This document shows positions 20,064-58,288 of a DNA stretch of 64,000 bases, piece after piece. Below the pieces are notes generated by a model that made no database searches, was not told the DNA's origin, and was given only the letters and a program-made list of their open reading frames with translations. Each line of letters begins with the position of its first letter. Position 1 is the stretch's first letter. Source of the stretch: Candidatus Pelagibacter communis (GTDB lineage: Bacteria > Pseudomonadota > Alphaproteobacteria > Pelagibacterales > Pelagibacteraceae). The stretch covers positions 1 through 64,000 of the forward strand of contig NZ_CVSF01000019.1 of assembly GCF_001179925.1 (NCBI RefSeq), in the 5' to 3' direction. The translations under genes were made by a program, and so were the position numbers.

Positions 20064-20648
20064 TTAATTAAAATTAATTAAGTACTCTTTTATTTTTTTA
20101 ATAGGTAGGCCCATAATGGTATCCTTATCTCCCTCAATATTTGAAAATAACGTTTTTCCAATTCCCTCTATTTGATAAACATTATAAGAGAATAAGGCAT
20201 CATCACTTATCTTTGAAAGATAAGTTTTTAATTCATCTTCTGAAAAATTTTTCATAGTAAGCTTAGCTTTATCAGTAAAATTCCAAATCATACTTCCATT
20301 TTTTGATATACAAACAGAACTAATTAAATAATGAGATTTATTATTTAAATCCTTCAAAATACTTAAAGCTTTAATTCTATTCTCTGGCTTAGAGATAATG
20401 TTTCCATTTAAGTCTATTACACTATCTGCGCCAAGAACTAGTTGGTCTCTAAATTTAGTGCTAATTTTGTTTGCTTTTACTTCTGCTAAGTTTTTAGATA
20501 TCAGTTCAGGTGAAGCTTTATTATTGATTAATGAAACCTTAATACTTTCCTCATCTACATTGGAAGGGACAACCTCACATTTAATATTGTTTAAATCAAG
20601 AATTTCTTTTCTTACTTTACTTTTAGATGCTAATATAATCTTATTCAT
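20064..20648 (-). CDS. maf: Maf-like nucleoside triphosphate pyrophosphatase
   Basis: 194 residues. ILASKSKVRKEIL (4-16) is the Maf signature, with VLGADSVIDLNG (active-site Asp) and KALSILKDLNNKSH. Maf proteins hydrolyse dTTP, UTP or modified nucleotides as house-cleaning enzymes. The order ppsR-maf-aroE-coaE-dnaQ is the conserved alphaproteobacterial origin-side block. Its ATG overlaps the ppsR stop by one base. Confidence 0.92.
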   Translation of the reverse strand: MNKIILASKSKVRKEILDLNNIKCEVVPSNVDEESIKVSLINNKASPELISKNLAEVKANKISTKFRDQLVLGADSVIDLNGNIISKPENRIKALSILKDLNNKSHYLISSVCISKNGSMIWNFTDKAKLTMKNFSEDELKTYLSKISDDALFSYNVYQIEGIGKTLFSNIEGDKDTIMGLPIKKIKEYLINFN

Positions 20649-21469
20649 TATTTTTGACTATATATTTCATAAATTTTAATTATTGATGCAGCCGTTTCTT
20701 CAACTGATTTTCTTGTTACATCAATAGTGGGCCAACTATATTTTTTAAATGTTTTTTTTGCATCTTCAATCTCCTTCTGAATATTCTCAATATTTGTATA
20801 TTTTTTATTATCTGTTTCTTTAAGAGAGCTCATTCGATTTTTTCTTAAATCTACTAACCTTTGTGGTTCTGTATTAAGACCAACAACACAACTAATTTTT
20901 GGATTATCTTTCAAAACTTTTGGAATGGAGTTTTCGTTCACTAATGGAATATTGGATGTTTTATATCCTTTGTTTGCCAAATATATTGATGTTGGAGTTT
21001 TGCTTGTTCTACTTACTCCTAATAAAATTATATCTGATTTTCCAACTTCGTTAATTAGATTTCCATCATCGTGATTCATGGTAAATTGAATTGCTTCTAT
21101 TCTTTGATAATATTCTTCATTTAAAACATGTTGGCCACTAGGTTCATTGGACGCTTTTTGATTTAATAATTTTGAAAAACTCAAAATTAAATTTCCAAGA
21201 ACACCAAAACATGGAAGGCCTTTATCTTCACTTTGATTAGCAAGAAATTTTGCCAAATTATTGTCCACTATAGTGTATAAAATTATTGAATTATCATTTT
21301 TTTTTGCAACTTCTAATATTTTTAAAATTTGATTTTCTGTTCTTGTGAAAGGAAATTCATTTACTTTATATTCAATATTCTTAAATTGTGCTTTTAAAGC
21401 TAAAAAAATTCTCTCTAATGTCTCACCAGTAGAATCAGAAATAAGGTAAATTTGATAGGTATTACTCAT
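20648..21469 (-). CDS. ppsR: pyruvate, phosphate/water dikinase regulatory protein (DUF299)
   Basis: 273 residues. The opening YLISDSTGETLERI (8-21) and the P-loop GVSRTSKTPTSIYLANKGYK (151-170) are diagnostic of the bifunctional kinase/phosphorylase that controls PEP synthase or pyruvate phosphate dikinase by threonine phosphorylation. Which dikinase it controls cannot be told here. This DUF299 gene flanks the origin opposite hemE in Caulobacter and Rickettsia. First gene of the leftward block. Confidence 0.94.
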   Translation of the reverse strand: MSNTYQIYLISDSTGETLERIFLALKAQFKNIEYKVNEFPFTRTENQILKILEVAKKNDNSIILYTIVDNNLAKFLANQSEDKGLPCFGVLGNLILSFSKLLNQKASNEPSGQHVLNEEYYQRIEAIQFTMNHDDGNLINEVGKSDIILLGVSRTSKTPTSIYLANKGYKTSNIPLVNENSIPKVLKDNPKISCVVGLNTEPQRLVDLRKNRMSSLKETDNKKYTNIENIQKEIEDAKKTFKKYSWPTIDVTRKSVEETAASIIKIYEIYSQK

Positions 21470-21748
21470 GTATAAAATGTTAAATATTTTGTATTATTTA
21501 CTAATATTCTCTCATTTAAATTGTATTTAAATATTTATTGTAAAAATTTTATATTATTCACAATAATAAACATGTTAATAAAATAATACATGTTTTGAAT
21601 AAAATTCTAAAATAGTAATATTAACAAGTAATAACAATCATTTTTGCAATATTTAAATAAAATAAATAGTTAATAAATGGTGTGTAAAAATTAATTATCG
21701 CAATTAACAAGATATAATACTAATACAAATATATATTTTATTATTTAA
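21470..21748. other. probable chromosomal replication origin (oriC)
   Basis: 279 bp without a gene between divergent ppsR and hemE, the longest gap in the window and by hand count about 36 G or C in all (near 13%). It holds TTATTCACA at 21554-21562, an exact match to the DnaA box TTATNCACA. Two one-mismatch boxes lie on the minus strand: 21573-21581 (TTATTAACA) and 21681-21689 (TTTTACACA). It also has direct repeats GTTAATAAA (21574, 21669), ACATGTT (21570, 21588) and TTAACAAG (21621, 21704). Location between hemE and DUF299, with parAB, parS and mnmG nearby, matches known alphaproteobacterial origins. Confidence 0.78.
21713..21718 (+). promoter_or_regulatory. candidate -10 box for hemE
   Basis: TATAAT lies 30 bp before the hemE ATG, giving a leader of about 24 nt. 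No good TTGACA-like -35 sits 16-18 bp upstream (the sequence there is AT only). In a region this rich in A and T a perfect hexamer can occur by chance, so this is a weak call. Confidence 0.3.
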
Positions 21749-22753
21749 ATGACTCCTATTAACGAAGTAATACTAAATAAAAAAACTTCTATAAATCCTA
21801 TTTGGATTATGAGGCAAGCTGGTAGGTATTTACCTGAATTTAGAGAAATAAGGTCTAAAAATACGAATTTTATAGAGCTATGTTTAAATGAAAAATTATC
21901 TGCTGAAATAACTTTACAACCTCTAAAAAGATTTGACTTGGACGCTGCAATAATTTTTTCTGATATTTTGATGCTTCCATATGGTTTAGGTCAAAAAGTA
22001 GAGTTTAAAAGAAATTTTGGTCCAATTTTGGAAAAGATAAATCTTGATCAAATTAGTAAAATTGATGAGATAGATTTTGTAGAAAAAATTCATAAGATAT
22101 ATAAAATAATAAAAAATGTAAGTGAAAATAATCTTTTAATTAATAAAAATACAATTGGATTTGTAGGAGCGCCCTGGACTCTTTTGGTCTATATGATCAA
22201 TCAGCAGTCTCCAAAAAATAAACTTAAAAAAGATTTTTTTAAAGATGAATTTTTAATAAATAGAGTTTTATTAATTATTGAAAAATTTTTAAAGATTCAT
22301 ATAAAAAATCAAATTGATAATGGCGCAAATCTAATACAAATTTTTGATAGTTGGGCTGGTTTACTTGAAGAGAAAGACCTACCAAATTTTGTATATACAC
22401 CTACACTTAATCTAGTTAATTATGTTAAATCTTTAAATGTTCCAGTTATTTGTTTTCCTCGCGAAATAAAAAACTATAAAGAATTTTGTGAAATTGTAAA
22501 ACCAGATGTTATTAACATTGATTATAATGTTGATCCCAAAGAGATTAGTAAAAATATTAAAATTCCAGTTCAAGGAGGATTAGATCCCAAAATATTATTG
22601 ACTGATAAAGAAACTTTAAAAAGAGAAGTTGTAAAGTATTTAAATATTTTTAAAGATCATCCTTATATATTTAATCTTGGTCATGGAATTTTACCGGAAA
22701 CCAACCCTGAAATGGTTGATTATCTCGTGAAATTGGTAAAAAATTATAAATGA
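21749..22753 (+). CDS. hemE: uroporphyrinogen decarboxylase
   Basis: 334 residues. PIWIMRQAGRYLPEFREI (about 17-34) is the URO-D signature with the substrate-binding Arg residues, IIFSDILMLPYGLG has the catalytic Asp, and FVGAPWTLLVYMI and GHGILPETNPEMV follow. It converts uroporphyrinogen III to coproporphyrinogen III. First rightward gene from the proposed origin, overlapping hemH by 4 bp. Confidence 0.97.
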   Translation: MTPINEVILNKKTSINPIWIMRQAGRYLPEFREIRSKNTNFIELCLNEKLSAEITLQPLKRFDLDAAIIFSDILMLPYGLGQKVEFKRNFGPILEKINLDQISKIDEIDFVEKIHKIYKIIKNVSENNLLINKNTIGFVGAPWTLLVYMINQQSPKNKLKKDFFKDEFLINRVLLIIEKFLKIHIKNQIDNGANLIQIFDSWAGLLEEKDLPNFVYTPTLNLVNYVKSLNVPVICFPREIKNYKEFCEIVKPDVINIDYNVDPKEISKNIKIPVQGGLDPKILLTDKETLKREVVKYLNIFKDHPYIFNLGHGILPETNPEMVDYLVKLVKNYK

Positions 22754-28901: not shown

Positions 28902-29551
28902 TGGATAAAGAAATTATAAAATATTACTCTAGACTCAATGGTTTAAATGTTTCACGTGAAACATTTGTAGATTTTGAGAATTTTATATCATTAATAATAG
29001 AAAAAAATAGAGATTTGAATATTATAAGCACTAAAAATTCAGGAATAGAAGAAATTAGACTAAGACACATTATAGATTCAGCACAAATAATTGATTTTGT
29101 TGATTTAAATTATAATACAACCACAGATTTAGGAACTGGAGGTGGAATGCCAGGAATTATTATTGCTATTATGCTAAAAAAAATAAAAAAAAATATGAAA
29201 ATTCACTTATTTGAAAAAAGTTTTCATAAAAGTAATTTTTTAAAGGATGTTTCCAGAAAATTAAATTTGAAAACGGAAATTTTTCAAAAAAATATATTTG
29301 AGATGAAAAATATGGAGACCGGCACAATTATGTCGAGAGCATTTAAGCCTTTGCCGGTAGTTTTAGATTTAGTTTATGAAAATTTTTCAAAGTATAAGAA
29401 CTTGATTTGTTTTATGGGTAAAAACGGGAGAGGTCTGTTTGAAAATGAAAAAAAAAAATGGGATTTAGAATATGAAGAGAAAAAAAGTTTAACTAGTGAG
29501 GACTCATTTATAATTAATATAAAAAAAATAGGAAAAAAAAAAACGAACTAA
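28901..29551 (+). CDS. rsmG: 16S rRNA (guanine527-N7)-methyltransferase RsmG
   Basis: 216 residues. TDLGTGGGMPGIIIAI (about 70-85) is the SAM motif I of GidB/RsmG, preceded by RLRHIIDSAQI and followed by IHLFEKSFHKSNFLKDV. Methylates G527 of 16S rRNA. Residues NVSRETF at 16-22 are encoded by a perfect parS palindrome, so this stretch serves both as protein and as ParB site. Next gene parA starts 10 bp downstream. Confidence 0.95.
   Translation: MDKEIIKYYSRLNGLNVSRETFVDFENFISLIIEKNRDLNIISTKNSGIEEIRLRHIIDSAQIIDFVDLNYNTTTDLGTGGGMPGIIIAIMLKKIKKNMKIHLFEKSFHKSNFLKDVSRKLNLKTEIFQKNIFEMKNMETGTIMSRAFKPLPVVLDLVYENFSKYKNLICFMGKNGRGLFENEKKKWDLEYEEKKSLTSEDSFIINIKKIGKKKTN
28945..28966. promoter_or_regulatory. 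parS centromere site (ParB/Spo0J binding), inside rsmG
   Basis: The 16-mer TGTTTCACGTGAAACA at 28948-28963 is the canonical bacterial parS. The palindrome extends perfectly to 22 bp (28945-28966) with flanking AAA/TTT. It lies 614 bp before parA and about 7.2 kb from the proposed origin. It is in the coding frame of rsmG. I saw no second perfect copy in the window by eye. Confidence 0.95.
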
Positions 29552-29561
29552 CAAAGGTATT

Positions 29562-30356
29562 GTGCAAATTATTTCTGTAATAAATCAAAAGGGTGGGGTT
29601 GGCAAAACAACAACCGTAATTAATCTTGCTGCGGGTTTGTCTCAACAGAATAAAAAAATTTTAGTTATAGATCTAGACCCTCAAGGAAATGCTACAACTG
29701 GTTTGGGATTATCTAATATGGAAAATTCAAGTGATACTATTTATGGAGTATTGAATGGTACAAAAGATATTATTGAAATTATAAAAAAAACTAAATTTAA
29801 AAATTTAGATATTATTACGTCAAATGTAGATTTGTCTGGATTAGAAGTAGAAACAGCAGATGATAGTGATAGAGCATTTATATTAAAGCGTAAATTATCC
29901 GCTTATTTAAATGATTCTAGAGAATTTTATGATTATATACTTATTGATTGCCCTCCATCATTAAGTTTATTAACGGTCATGGCTCTTGTTTGTTCAAATT
30001 CACTTTTGGTACCTCTTCAGGCCGAATTTTTTGCTTTAGAGGGTCTTACCCAGTTGATGAAAACTATTGAACGTATAAAAGTGAGTCTAAATCCTAGCTT
30101 AAAGATTAGAGGAATATTATTAACTATGTATGATAAAAGAAACAAACTTTCATCTCAAGTTGAAAAAGAAGCAAGAGATTATTTTAAGGAAAAGGTTTAT
30201 TCAACTGTAATTCCAAGAAATGTTAGATTATCAGAAGCTCCATCACACGGTATGCCCGTTTTAATATATGATAAATCTTGTCCAGGCAGTAAATCTTATT
30301 TTAATTTTACAGATGAATTTATTAGCCAAGAGACATCCATTGGGAGTGCTGCTTAA
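29562..30356 (+). CDS. parA: chromosome partitioning ATPase ParA
   Basis: 264 residues. Starts with GTG at 29562; no ATG fits and a weak AAAGG lies a few bases upstream. The deviant Walker A is INQKGGVGKTTTVINLAAGL (7-26) with both lysines. LVIDLDPQGNATTGLG is Walker A-prime, and YILIDCPPSLSLLT is Walker B. Binds DNA as an ATP dimer and moves ParB-parS complexes. Its stop overlaps the parB ATG by one base. Confidence 0.97.
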   Translation: MQIISVINQKGGVGKTTTVINLAAGLSQQNKKILVIDLDPQGNATTGLGLSNMENSSDTIYGVLNGTKDIIEIIKKTKFKNLDIITSNVDLSGLEVETADDSDRAFILKRKLSAYLNDSREFYDYILIDCPPSLSLLTVMALVCSNSLLVPLQAEFFALEGLTQLMKTIERIKVSLNPSLKIRGILLTMYDKRNKLSSQVEKEARDYFKEKVYSTVIPRNVRLSEAPSHGMPVLIYDKSCPGSKSYFNFTDEFISQETSIGSAA

Positions 30357-31204
30357 TGGATTCTAATAAAATAAAAAAAGGTTTAGGCAGAGGCCTTTCC
30401 TCTTTAATCGGTGAGTCAAAGACTGAAATTCAAAAAAATCAATTATCAATTAGTGATTTAGTTCCCAATAAATATCAACCAAGAAAGATTTTTGATGAAT
30501 CTAATTTAGATGAATTAGCCAAATCTATTGCAGAAAGAGGTATGATACAACCAATCGTCGTGAGAGTATCGAACGATAATAAATCAAAATATGAAATAAT
30601 AGCAGGCGAAAGAAGATGGTTAGCTGCACAAAAAGCTGGTCTTCATAATGTTCCAGTTGTGATTACCGAGGCAGATGATTTAAAATCTTTAGAATTTGCT
30701 ATCGTTGAAAATGTTCAAAGACACGATCTAAATCCTCTCGAAGAAGCACAAGGTTATAAACGGCTGATCGATGAATTTTCTTATGATCAAGAAAAAGTGT
30801 CAAAATTTATTGGTAAAAGTAGAAGTTATATAGCAAATTCTTTAAGACTTCTTACGTTGCCGGACGATGTTATAAAATTAATTGAGTTACAAAAATTAAC
30901 GGCTGGACATGCAAAAATTTTAGTTGGTCTTGACAATGCAAATTTTGTTGCAAATAAAATAATAGAAAAGAAACTTTCTGTGAGACAAACAGAAAATTAT
31001 GTAAAAATTTTTAAAAGTAAAAAACATAAAATTAATAATCAAAAAGATGCAAACATTAAAGATTTAGAAAAACTTATCTCTGAAAAAATCGGCTTAAATG
31101 TAATCATTAAAAACAATAAGAGAAATCAAGGAACAATAACATTCTCTTATAAGGAAATAGATCAATTAAATAAAATAATCGAAATTATTAAAACTAATTA
31201 TTAG
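30356..31204 (+). CDS. parB: chromosome partitioning protein ParB (CTPase)
   Basis: 282 residues. The N-terminal KKGLGRGLSSLIGE (5-18) is the ParA-stimulating motif. IIAGERRWLAAQKAGLHNVP (about 81-100; GERR box) and VENVQRHDLNPLEEAQGY (about 117-134; ENVQR box) form the CTP-binding fold. A helix-turn-helix follows (VSKFIGKSRSYIANSLRLL) and the C-terminal dimer domain runs about 235-282. Binds the parS inside rsmG. Ends 4 bp from the convergent holA stop. Confidence 0.97.
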   Translation: MDSNKIKKGLGRGLSSLIGESKTEIQKNQLSISDLVPNKYQPRKIFDESNLDELAKSIAERGMIQPIVVRVSNDNKSKYEIIAGERRWLAAQKAGLHNVPVVITEADDLKSLEFAIVENVQRHDLNPLEEAQGYKRLIDEFSYDQEKVSKFIGKSRSYIANSLRLLTLPDDVIKLIELQKLTAGHAKILVGLDNANFVANKIIEKKLSVRQTENYVKIFKSKKHKINNQKDANIKDLEKLISEKIGLNVIIKNNKRNQGTITFSYKEIDQLNKIIEIIKTNY

Positions 31205-39726: not shown

Positions 39727-40229
39727 GAAATTTTTATTTTTGTATTTTTATCAATTATTTTTATCAAAATTTTAAAATCTTTTTTATCTAAAGCTATACA
39801 ACCTGCTGTAGGCTTATAGTTGTTTGTTAAATGAATGAATATTGCACTACCTTTGTAAGGTTTATTCTTAGTGTTACACTTAATTGGAATAAAAAAATTG
39901 TATTTATAATCTTTTCTAAAGAGCACTTCATATTTAATAATACTATTGATATTAATAAGTTTATTGTAATTATTTTTATCACAAGGGTCATTACACCAAC
40001 CCATGTTTCTAACTATCGGAATTTTTTTTAAATTAGTTTTTGGCATTGGAACTCTATCTTTCCGGTAAAATAAATTTCCTAGTTTAAATACACCAATAGG
40101 TGTTTTTTTATCTCCCTCAATTTTATTTGATGTAAGTCCCTTCTTTCCAATTGAACATCTAAAGTTAAATTCTTGAAAATTTAAAGTATCATTATTTTTT
40201 AAAATAATTAGATTATTAATCATGACCAA
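39723..40229 (-). CDS. L,D-transpeptidase (YkuD) family protein without signal peptide
   Basis: 168 residues. AIFIHLTNNYKPTAGCIALD (about 138-157) carries the catalytic His and Cys in the YkuD pattern, and DKKTPIGVFKLGNLFYRKDR precedes it. These enzymes make 3-3 peptidoglycan cross-links or attach lipoproteins, but here no N-terminal signal or membrane segment is seen, which is odd for an enzyme of the periplasm. Two in-frame ATGs (40229, 40223) lie at the overlap with the opposite regulator gene. Confidence 0.82.
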   Translation of the reverse strand: MVMINNLIILKNNDTLNFQEFNFRCSIGKKGLTSNKIEGDKKTPIGVFKLGNLFYRKDRVPMPKTNLKKIPIVRNMGWCNDPCDKNNYNKLININSIIKYEVLFRKDYKYNFFIPIKCNTKNKPYKGSAIFIHLTNNYKPTAGCIALDKKDFKILIKIIDKNTKIKIS

Positions 40230-40791
40230 TAATAAATTAGTAGTATATGAATCAAAAGATATCTATAAAATTTTATATGAAATAAAAGAAAAATTAAAAA
40301 TAGACTTAATTTTTTTAGAAAAAAAAAAAGATTTAGAGATTTATTTAAACAGTAATCCTAATGATTTGGTATTATCAAAAAAAAAAATTGATAACTTAAA
40401 TCAAATTATTTTAAATAATTTTCCTTATAAGATTAACAAATTAATTGAAATAATTAATTTAAAGATTTTAAAAAAAAACTTTTTAATAAATTCTAATTTG
40501 AGTATTGGGAAATATAAATTAGATATTAATTCAAAAAAAATTTACCTAAATAAACAGGAATTGGATCTTACTGAACAAGAAATAAAACTTCTAACATATT
40601 TAAATAACAAAGGCAAAGCAGCAAGTGTTGATGAACTTCAAAAAGATATTTGGGGTTATTCTGAAAACTTAGAGACCCATACTGTAGAAACACATATTCA
40701 CAGGCTTAGAAAAAAATTTCTAGACACATTTGAAGATAAAAATTTTATTATTAGTAAAAAAAAAGGTTATCTAATTAAAAAATTTCTTTAG
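40222..40791 (+). CDS. OmpR-type winged-helix protein with degenerate receiver-like N-terminus
   Basis: 189 residues. The C-terminal half (about 95-189) is a Trans_reg_C DNA-binding domain: LTEQEIKLLTYLNNKGKA then VETHIHRLRKKF as recognition helix and IISKKKGYLI as the wing. The N-terminal 90 residues have the length and rhythm of a receiver, but NDLVLSKKK stands where the phospho-acceptor Asp would be, so phosphorylation is unlikely. Target unknown. Divergent overlap with the L,D-transpeptidase start; convergent 4-bp overlap with the kinase gene. Confidence 0.8.
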   Translation: MTNNKLVVYESKDIYKILYEIKEKLKIDLIFLEKKKDLEIYLNSNPNDLVLSKKKIDNLNQIILNNFPYKINKLIEIINLKILKKNFLINSNLSIGKYKLDINSKKIYLNKQELDLTEQEIKLLTYLNNKGKAASVDELQKDIWGYSENLETHTVETHIHRLRKKFLDTFEDKNFIISKKKGYLIKKFL

Positions 40792-56888: not shown

Positions 56889-57946
56889 TTTCTAGAAATT
56901 ATAAACTGAGTACCAAACCATCTCCACTTACCATCATCATTTAGAGAGCAATTTACTCTTCCTCTTCTTGGAAGAAAAGCTTCTCTGAATTCTATGAACA
57001 AAGTGTCATCTTTAAATTTAATATTCGATTTTTCCCATTTATCACCTTCGTTAGAATAACAATTTATATTTTTAATATTTTTTTGATTTTTAAAAAACTG
57101 TACTGAAAAGATTGGAGGATTATTCTTTTTATCAAGTTTTTTTTCTAAAGGAATTAAATTTTTATATTCTAGTGGATAAGTATTTATGATAGTTTTGAAT
57201 CTTTTTAACTCTCCATAATTTTCATTAATTGGAAATCTGGGTAGTTGAAATTTTTCTTTATTTACATCAATTACACCAGAGTGCTGTCCAAAGGCGAACA
57301 TGAAATTGTTAGAAATATAATTTCTCATGAATTCAGAGTATTCACCGAAAGGATATGAAAATAGTTTTGGAATATAATTGATTTTTTCCTTAAAAATTTT
57401 ATTAGCTTTTTCAATATCTTTAACGAAATCTTCATCACTTTCTTCTATTAAATACTCATGGGAATGAGAATGGTGTCCTATCATTGTAAAACTTTCTTTT
57501 TCTATTTCTTTAATTTGTTCCCAAGTCATATAACCTTTATTTCCAACTGGTTCAGTTGAAACAAATAAAATAAAAGGAATTTTATTTTTTTTTAAATATG
57601 GCCATGCAACATCGTAAAAAGATTGGAAGCCATCATCAATAGTTAAAAGGATTTTTTTTTGTTTTTTTGGAATACTGAAATTTTGTTGAAATTTTTCTGG
57701 ATTAATGAATTCGTAATTCAAATCATTAATCATTTTTATATGTTTTAAAAAAACCTCCATTCGAATATTTGTTGATGGGTATTTGTTTTCATCAAATCTA
57801 TGATACATAATTGATAGAACACCCTCATCTTTAGAATATTGTTTGATATTATTTTCATCTGCTTTAGAATTTATAATTAAAAAAATAATTAATATGAATG
57901 ATTTGATAATTGATGCAGCCAAAGAAAAAATATTTTTAATGCTCAT
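56885..57946 (-). CDS. exported polysaccharide deacetylase
   Basis: 353 residues. Signal peptide about 1-29 (SFILIIFLIINSKA). NodB-type domain: ILLTIDDGFQSFYDVAWPYL holds the catalytic Asp pair (about 95-115), MIGHHSHSHEYL the metal His residues, and LFSYPFGEYSEFM the third motif. Near 225-353 is an extra domain of unknown role. It would remove acetyl groups from a sugar polymer, possibly peptidoglycan. The start overlaps the divergent tsaB by 53 bp; removal of the overlap would destroy the signal peptide. Confidence 0.87.
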   Translation of the reverse strand: MSIKNIFSLAASIIKSFILIIFLIINSKADENNIKQYSKDEGVLSIMYHRFDENKYPSTNIRMEVFLKHIKMINDLNYEFINPEKFQQNFSIPKKQKKILLTIDDGFQSFYDVAWPYLKKNKIPFILFVSTEPVGNKGYMTWEQIKEIEKESFTMIGHHSHSHEYLIEESDEDFVKDIEKANKIFKEKINYIPKLFSYPFGEYSEFMRNYISNNFMFAFGQHSGVIDVNKEKFQLPRFPINENYGELKRFKTIINTYPLEYKNLIPLEKKLDKKNNPPIFSVQFFKNQKNIKNINCYSNEGDKWEKSNIKFKDDTLFIEFREAFLPRRGRVNCSLNDDGKWRWFGTQFIISRN

Positions 57947-58280
57947 TAAGGATAGAAATATTTATAGTGTTAGTCATGAAAATAGTAAAACTAATTATGA
58001 AAAATTAACTATTTTAATTAACGATTTTCTTAATGATTATGATTTAAAAATTAACGAAATTTCAAAATTATATGTAAATCGGGGTCCAGGTAGTTTTGCT
58101 GGTATAAGAAATTCTCTTGCTGTCGTTAAAGCTATTTATATAGCAAAAAAAATTGATTATTATTGTTTTAGTTTTGAAGATTTTGACAAATCATATAATA
58201 ATAAATATGAAAATGTTCCCAATTTGTGTGATAAATTAAAGATTAAAAAAAATTTGATTAATCCTATTTATATAAGTTAA
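57894..58280 (+). CDS. tsaB: short TsaB (t6A tRNA modification factor), C-terminal domain missing
   Basis: 128 residues from ATG 57894. LIIDAAKEKIFLMLI and ISKLYVNRGPGSFAGIRNSL are the TsaB ASKHA-fold signatures. TsaB is usually near 220 residues; here the second domain is gone, leaving the part that contacts TsaD. The sequence ends in an ordinary stop, with no decayed remnant after it. Its first 53 bases overlap the opposing deacetylase. fur starts 8 bp downstream; the usual rimI gene is absent. Confidence 0.82.
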   Translation: MNDLIIDAAKEKIFLMLIKDRNIYSVSHENSKTNYEKLTILINDFLNDYDLKINEISKLYVNRGPGSFAGIRNSLAVVKAIYIAKKIDYYCFSFEDFDKSYNNKYENVPNLCDKLKIKKNLINPIYIS

Positions 58281-58288
58281 AATTAATT

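Follow-up and report, generated by a model that had tools for sequence, protein, structure and literature searches.

The gap between ppsR and hemE as the probable chromosomal replication origin of a SAR11 bacterium

The question raised by this locus is whether the AT-rich gap between ppsR and hemE, in the 64-kb stretch of SAR11 DNA analysed here (the window), is the site at which replication of the chromosome begins. The original prediction took the gap for oriC and pointed out that in Caulobacter and Rickettsia the origin lies between hemE and the DUF299 gene. This agrees with the literature, in which the site between hemE and the COG1806 gene is known as an origin location of alphaproteobacteria, as in Caulobacter crescentus Cori and Rickettsia oriC (PMC1914354). 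The results presented below support the gap well, short of proof, as the chromosomal replication origin of this bacterium (probability about 0.92), given its conservation, the enrichment of DnaA boxes in the gap only, its independence from hemE and ppsR, the parS site and the nearby skew minima. The location of the origin is much firmer than the mechanism of its opening.

The coordinates of the features are collected in Table 1. Both flanking genes diverge from the gap, as predicted, and the measured G+C content matches the earlier estimate of about 13%. The scan of open reading frames (ORFs) contained a single longer ORF-free stretch (57947-58288, an apparent 342-bp gap), but a tsaB-like ORF with a TTG start (57843-58280) fills it, and the ppsR/hemE gap is therefore the longest non-coding gap in the window. 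Its AT-richness, with no G or C in the final 17 bp before hemE, is that of a DnaA-dependent oriC, and its place between hemE and a COG1806 gene is that of Cori-type origins.

Table 1. Features of the proposed origin and its surroundings (positions in the window)
Feature	Position	Strand	Remarks
ppsR (COG1806/DUF299), one flank	20648..21469	minus	NCBIfam PRK05339 over cut-off
Proposed oriC, whole ppsR/hemE intergenic gap	21470..21748	no strand	279 bp, 12.9% G+C
DnaA box B, TTATTCACA	21554..21562	plus	exact
Weak box B', TAATAAACA	21564..21572	plus	tandem with box B
Box C, TTATTAACA, AT-shifted type	21573..21581	minus	faces box B; one mismatch
Weak box TTATTCAAA	21594..21602	minus	one mismatch
Weak box D, TTATTAACT	21668..21676	minus	
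Box E, TTTTACACA	21681..21689	minus	one mismatch
Box F, CAATTAACA, hemE-proximal	21701..21709	plus	degenerate here; mostly TTATTCACA in relatives
4-bp spacer AGAT	21710..21713	plus	37% G+C across relatives (G+C-enriched)
Trinucleotide track ATA ATA CTA ATA CAA ATA, DnaA-trio-like	21714..21731	plus	
AT-only tail to hemE start, candidate unwinding region	21732..21748	plus	
hemE, other flank	21749..22753	plus	NCBIfam TIGR01464 over cut-off
parS, TGTTTCACGTGAAACA	28948..28963	no strand	exact; inside rsmG; 7.2 kb from gap
parA	29562..30356	plus	
parB	30356..31204	plus	

The three boxes named in the original prediction, the exact box B and the one-mismatch boxes C and E, were all found in the sequence, and the near-box at 21594 had been overlooked. 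Box F of the window differs from TTATCCACA at 4 positions. In the window as a whole TTATNCACA occurs 4 times against 4.06 expected, so individual boxes carry little weight here. As a non-coding cluster, the boxes exceed chance, as is characteristic of a DnaA-dependent oriC: by box-cluster score the gap ranks first among 158 intergenic regions (window and sampled relatives), and its cluster stands out when the gap sequence is shuffled under a first-order Markov model (p ~0.01). Only 2 exact TTATNMACA boxes are present in the gap of the window's species, and exact boxes do not set the gap apart among the sampled stretches of the relative G005; the densest near-box segment in those stretches was rejected, as it is coding DNA of the tsaB region. 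The box cluster is strong mainly across relatives, and less so in the window's own species. The hemE-side boxes (21668-21709 in the window) are weaker in the window's clade (L063, L007, L005 and L084) than in the main Pelagibacter clade.

The hemE protein was used to collect 80 Pelagibacteraceae loci, 79 of which span the gap. In each of these 79, ppsR and hemE are retained as neighbours with 262-283 bp between them; in further genera the gap measures 258-286 bp. A lack of conserved blocks among relatives had been named as a finding that would speak against an origin, but such blocks are present across the family. In 119 distinct SAR11 gaps, TTATNCACA averaged 0.86 copies per gap (0.037 expected) and the AT-shifted TTATNAACA 2.56 copies (0.15 expected), the latter being present in 99% of the gaps. 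This corresponds to a 17-23-fold enrichment of these DnaA-type boxes, although the ratios do not represent independent counts, since the gaps share kinship, and the argument is carried by the controls. In 39 kb of other intergenic DNA from three complete relatives, TTATNCACA occurred 6 times against 2.5 expected and TTATNAACA 5 times against 7.3 expected. At the position of box B, 97 of 107 gaps from the same genus match TTATNMACA exactly. The description of the gap as poor in classical DnaA boxes thus holds for the few perfect boxes of this species but not for the family, whose gaps carry several AT-shifted TTATNAACA each. A second BLAST match of the gap within its own genome (G000:C41) lies in a region after clpX and was discarded as an AT-rich chance similarity.

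Conserved motifs between divergent genes may also be explained by an ordinary ppsR/hemE promoter region, AT-rich like the genome, in which the motifs are -10/-35 elements or transcription-factor sites. TATAAT- or TAATACAA-like sequences do occur at both ends of the gap, with comparable spacing to the start codons, and in the window's clade a perfect TATAAT overlaps the track beside box F. However, the gap and its boxes outlast both neighbouring genes. In genus g2 (G001, G007) rho stands in the place of hemE and the gap retains TTATAAACA three times. A search for ppsR in the sister family f2 found none; in the five genomes examined (L257-L261) a gap of 271-280 bp with box-like sites lies between maf and hemE. 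Since the boxes survive the replacement of hemE and the loss of ppsR, they do not belong to the promoter of either one, and the persistence of the gap and its boxes is not accounted for by a hemE or ppsR promoter alone. The enriched motif is, besides, the DnaA box, which shows little or no enrichment in other intergenic regions, and a promoter region would leave the local parS and skew switch unexplained. This explanation is therefore very improbable, although promoters may overlap the origin. In the two g2 loci in which rho adjoins the gap (L113, L114), the only relative of hemE to be found, about 33% identical, is located elsewhere, in the company of other haem-type genes.

The chromosomal surroundings of the gap also fit an origin. 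Each of the 11 genomes searched has at least one close parS match at a distance of 7-20 kb, and the nearness of parABS is shared with Cori-type origins. The genomes of relatives were analysed as sampled stretches, of which those of G005 and G009, two complete relatives, were dense and contiguous over ±200 kb around the gap. Within this range the cumulative GC-skew minimum is separated from the gap by 29 kb in G005 and by 17 kb in G009, and the cumulative gene-strand minima are likewise 17-29 kb away; a GC-skew minimum elsewhere, another finding that had been named as contrary to an origin, was not seen in these two regions. GC skew and gene strand both have negative values towards ppsR and positive ones towards hemE, as expected of a DnaA-dependent oriC. 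Strand-balanced skew at fourfold sites gave no clear switch, therefore the skew signal stems from gene orientation, and in the sparsely sampled G015 the skew fitted poorly.

These data also bear on the alternative that replication starts elsewhere, at dnaA, 62 kb distant on the same contig, or within the 30 kb on the ppsR side near the G005 skew minimum, and that the gap is a DnaA-titrating or DnaA-regulated site. The upstream region of dnaA in the window's own genome contains one exact and one near box, and the G005 minimum is 29 kb away from the gap. The corresponding dnaA upstream regions of relatives are nevertheless almost free of boxes despite equal AT-richness, and dnaA upstream was rejected as the origin. 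The parS site is closer to the gap than to dnaA, and the gap is bracketed by the skew minima, that of G005 on one side and that of G009 on the other. An origin at another site appears extremely unlikely, and the gap is retained as the probable origin. Nearly the entire chromosome of G009 is mirrored about the hemE-gap-ppsR block relative to G005 and G015 (loci L133-L192), which are mostly collinear with each other. This is as expected of inversion around an origin, but one local inversion could equally produce the mirroring; it gives no independent proof, and synteny was rejected as a test of the axis. A search for dif sites at the terminus (up to 3 mismatches) gave no more matches than a reversed control in this AT-rich DNA.

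The control sites of the gap differ from those of Caulobacter Cori. In the 119 gaps CtrA sites (TTAAN7TTAA) occur at chance level (0.252 per gap, 0.266 expected), as do IHF sites (0.092 against 0.084, judged by consensus match only), and GANTC is underrepresented (0.017 per gap, 0.129 expected) while being near expectation in other intergenic regions (64 against 70). A CcrM homolog exists in SAR11 (PMC3973325). The NCBIfam CtrA model gave no protein over the cut-off in 7 SAR11 genomes (best score 148 bits against 350), whereas 1 of 14 control genomes had one. The three OmpR-type regulators of the window's own genome were considered as CtrA and rejected, as they scored higher with other regulator models and none was over the cut-off. 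Domain IV of DnaA retains the RPRQ, SLPEIG and RDHTT...H signature when aligned to E. coli 1J1V; these are the residues that we take, from the E. coli structure, to read the box. Taken together, CtrA and IHF sites at chance, depleted GANTC, no CtrA over the cut-off and the preserved DnaA signature suggest that control of the origin depends solely on DnaA and on boxes that are weaker and AT-shifted.

The part of the gap next to hemE is the most informative one. Two minus-strand boxes, about 11-13 bp apart, are followed there by the plus-strand box F. Among 28 diverse representatives, the block of box F, spacer and the next 18 bp carries the highest mean information (0.97, 0.66 and 0.50 bits, the value of box F being inflated because ACA served as the anchor), compared with 0.31 bits for the 45 bp upstream and 0.14 bits for the tail, whose G+C content across relatives is 6%. 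The published trio rule demands a DnaA box and, within 16 bp, at least three 3'-NAN-5' trios. The track of the window has four trios in register (ATA ATA CTA ATA), but most Pelagibacter gaps have CAA at two of their six trinucleotides and so lack the three trios in a row that the rule requires. The rule holds in only 29% of 125 gaps, and such runs arise easily by chance in AT-rich DNA, where a per-gap trio scan has no discriminating power. A DnaA box and its trios keep a shared relative orientation. The TAATAATAA motif after box B was dismissed as a DnaA-trio, its polarity being wrong relative to the box. In family f2, CTACTACTACTA stands beside a CACAGG box in two of five gaps and resembles a textbook DnaA-trio.

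The order of these elements resembles the basal unwinding system of Bacillus subtilis, which comprises a box, a short GC-rich spacer, trios reading 5'-CTA-3' on the box strand and AT-rich DNA (PMC8287927, PMC8235120). In SAR11, box F, the 4-bp spacer, the track and the AT-rich tail follow each other in the same order and on the same strand, and in family f2 CTACTACTACTA follows its CACAGG box. Unlike in B. subtilis, CAA interrupts the trios in most Pelagibacter gaps and box F of the window is weak. The likeness is suggestive only, and the odds that the block is a DnaA-box/DnaA-trio unwinding module are perhaps slightly below even; the track could alternatively be the -10 element of hemE. In the mechanism proposed here, DnaA would bind a set of boxes on either side of the gap, most of them weak and AT-shifted. 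If the block is an unwinding module, DnaA on the hemE-proximal box F would extend over the short spacer onto the trinucleotide track. It might then open the AT-only tail next to hemE for loading of the helicase, and ParB bound to parS, 7 kb away, would subsequently segregate the new origins.

In comparison with known systems, the SAR11 gap has the same flanking genes, AT-richness and DnaA boxes as Caulobacter Cori and Rickettsia oriC (PMC1914354), and parABS, rho, mnmE and mnmG also lie near the gap in the window. It is shorter than both (about 270 bp, where theirs exceed 400 bp) and differs in its boxes, most of which are TTATNAACA. CtrA sites are usual but not defining in Cori-type origins, and some Rickettsiales are without them (PMC1914354); an IHF site is likewise a usual feature of such origins. 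The origins of Wolbachia, Ehrlichia and Anaplasma, some of which lack CtrA sites, are also AT-rich gaps beside hemE with few DnaA boxes, but they are longer and have COG1253 on the other flank (PMC1914354). The SAR11 gap occupies an already known alphaproteobacterial location, with simplified control sites. A further reading, tentative and somewhat less likely than not, is that SAR11 represents a stripped, DnaA-only variant, in which the ancestral Cori-type CtrA, IHF and GANTC sites would have been lost and the boxes shifted to low-affinity TTATNAACA, with canonical DnaA residues and a B. subtilis-like core of box, spacer and trios beside hemE. No paper describing a SAR11 origin was found in the literature searched, and origin databases such as DoriC may list one. 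A precisely located origin would offer a 270-bp target for studying how a streamlined cell without CtrA times its replication. A protein of the OmpR type, with a winged helix and a degenerate receiver portion, is encoded at 40222-40791 in the window and 18-28 kb from the gap in all 7 genomes examined; it is not CtrA, but is a candidate for an origin-linked regulator.
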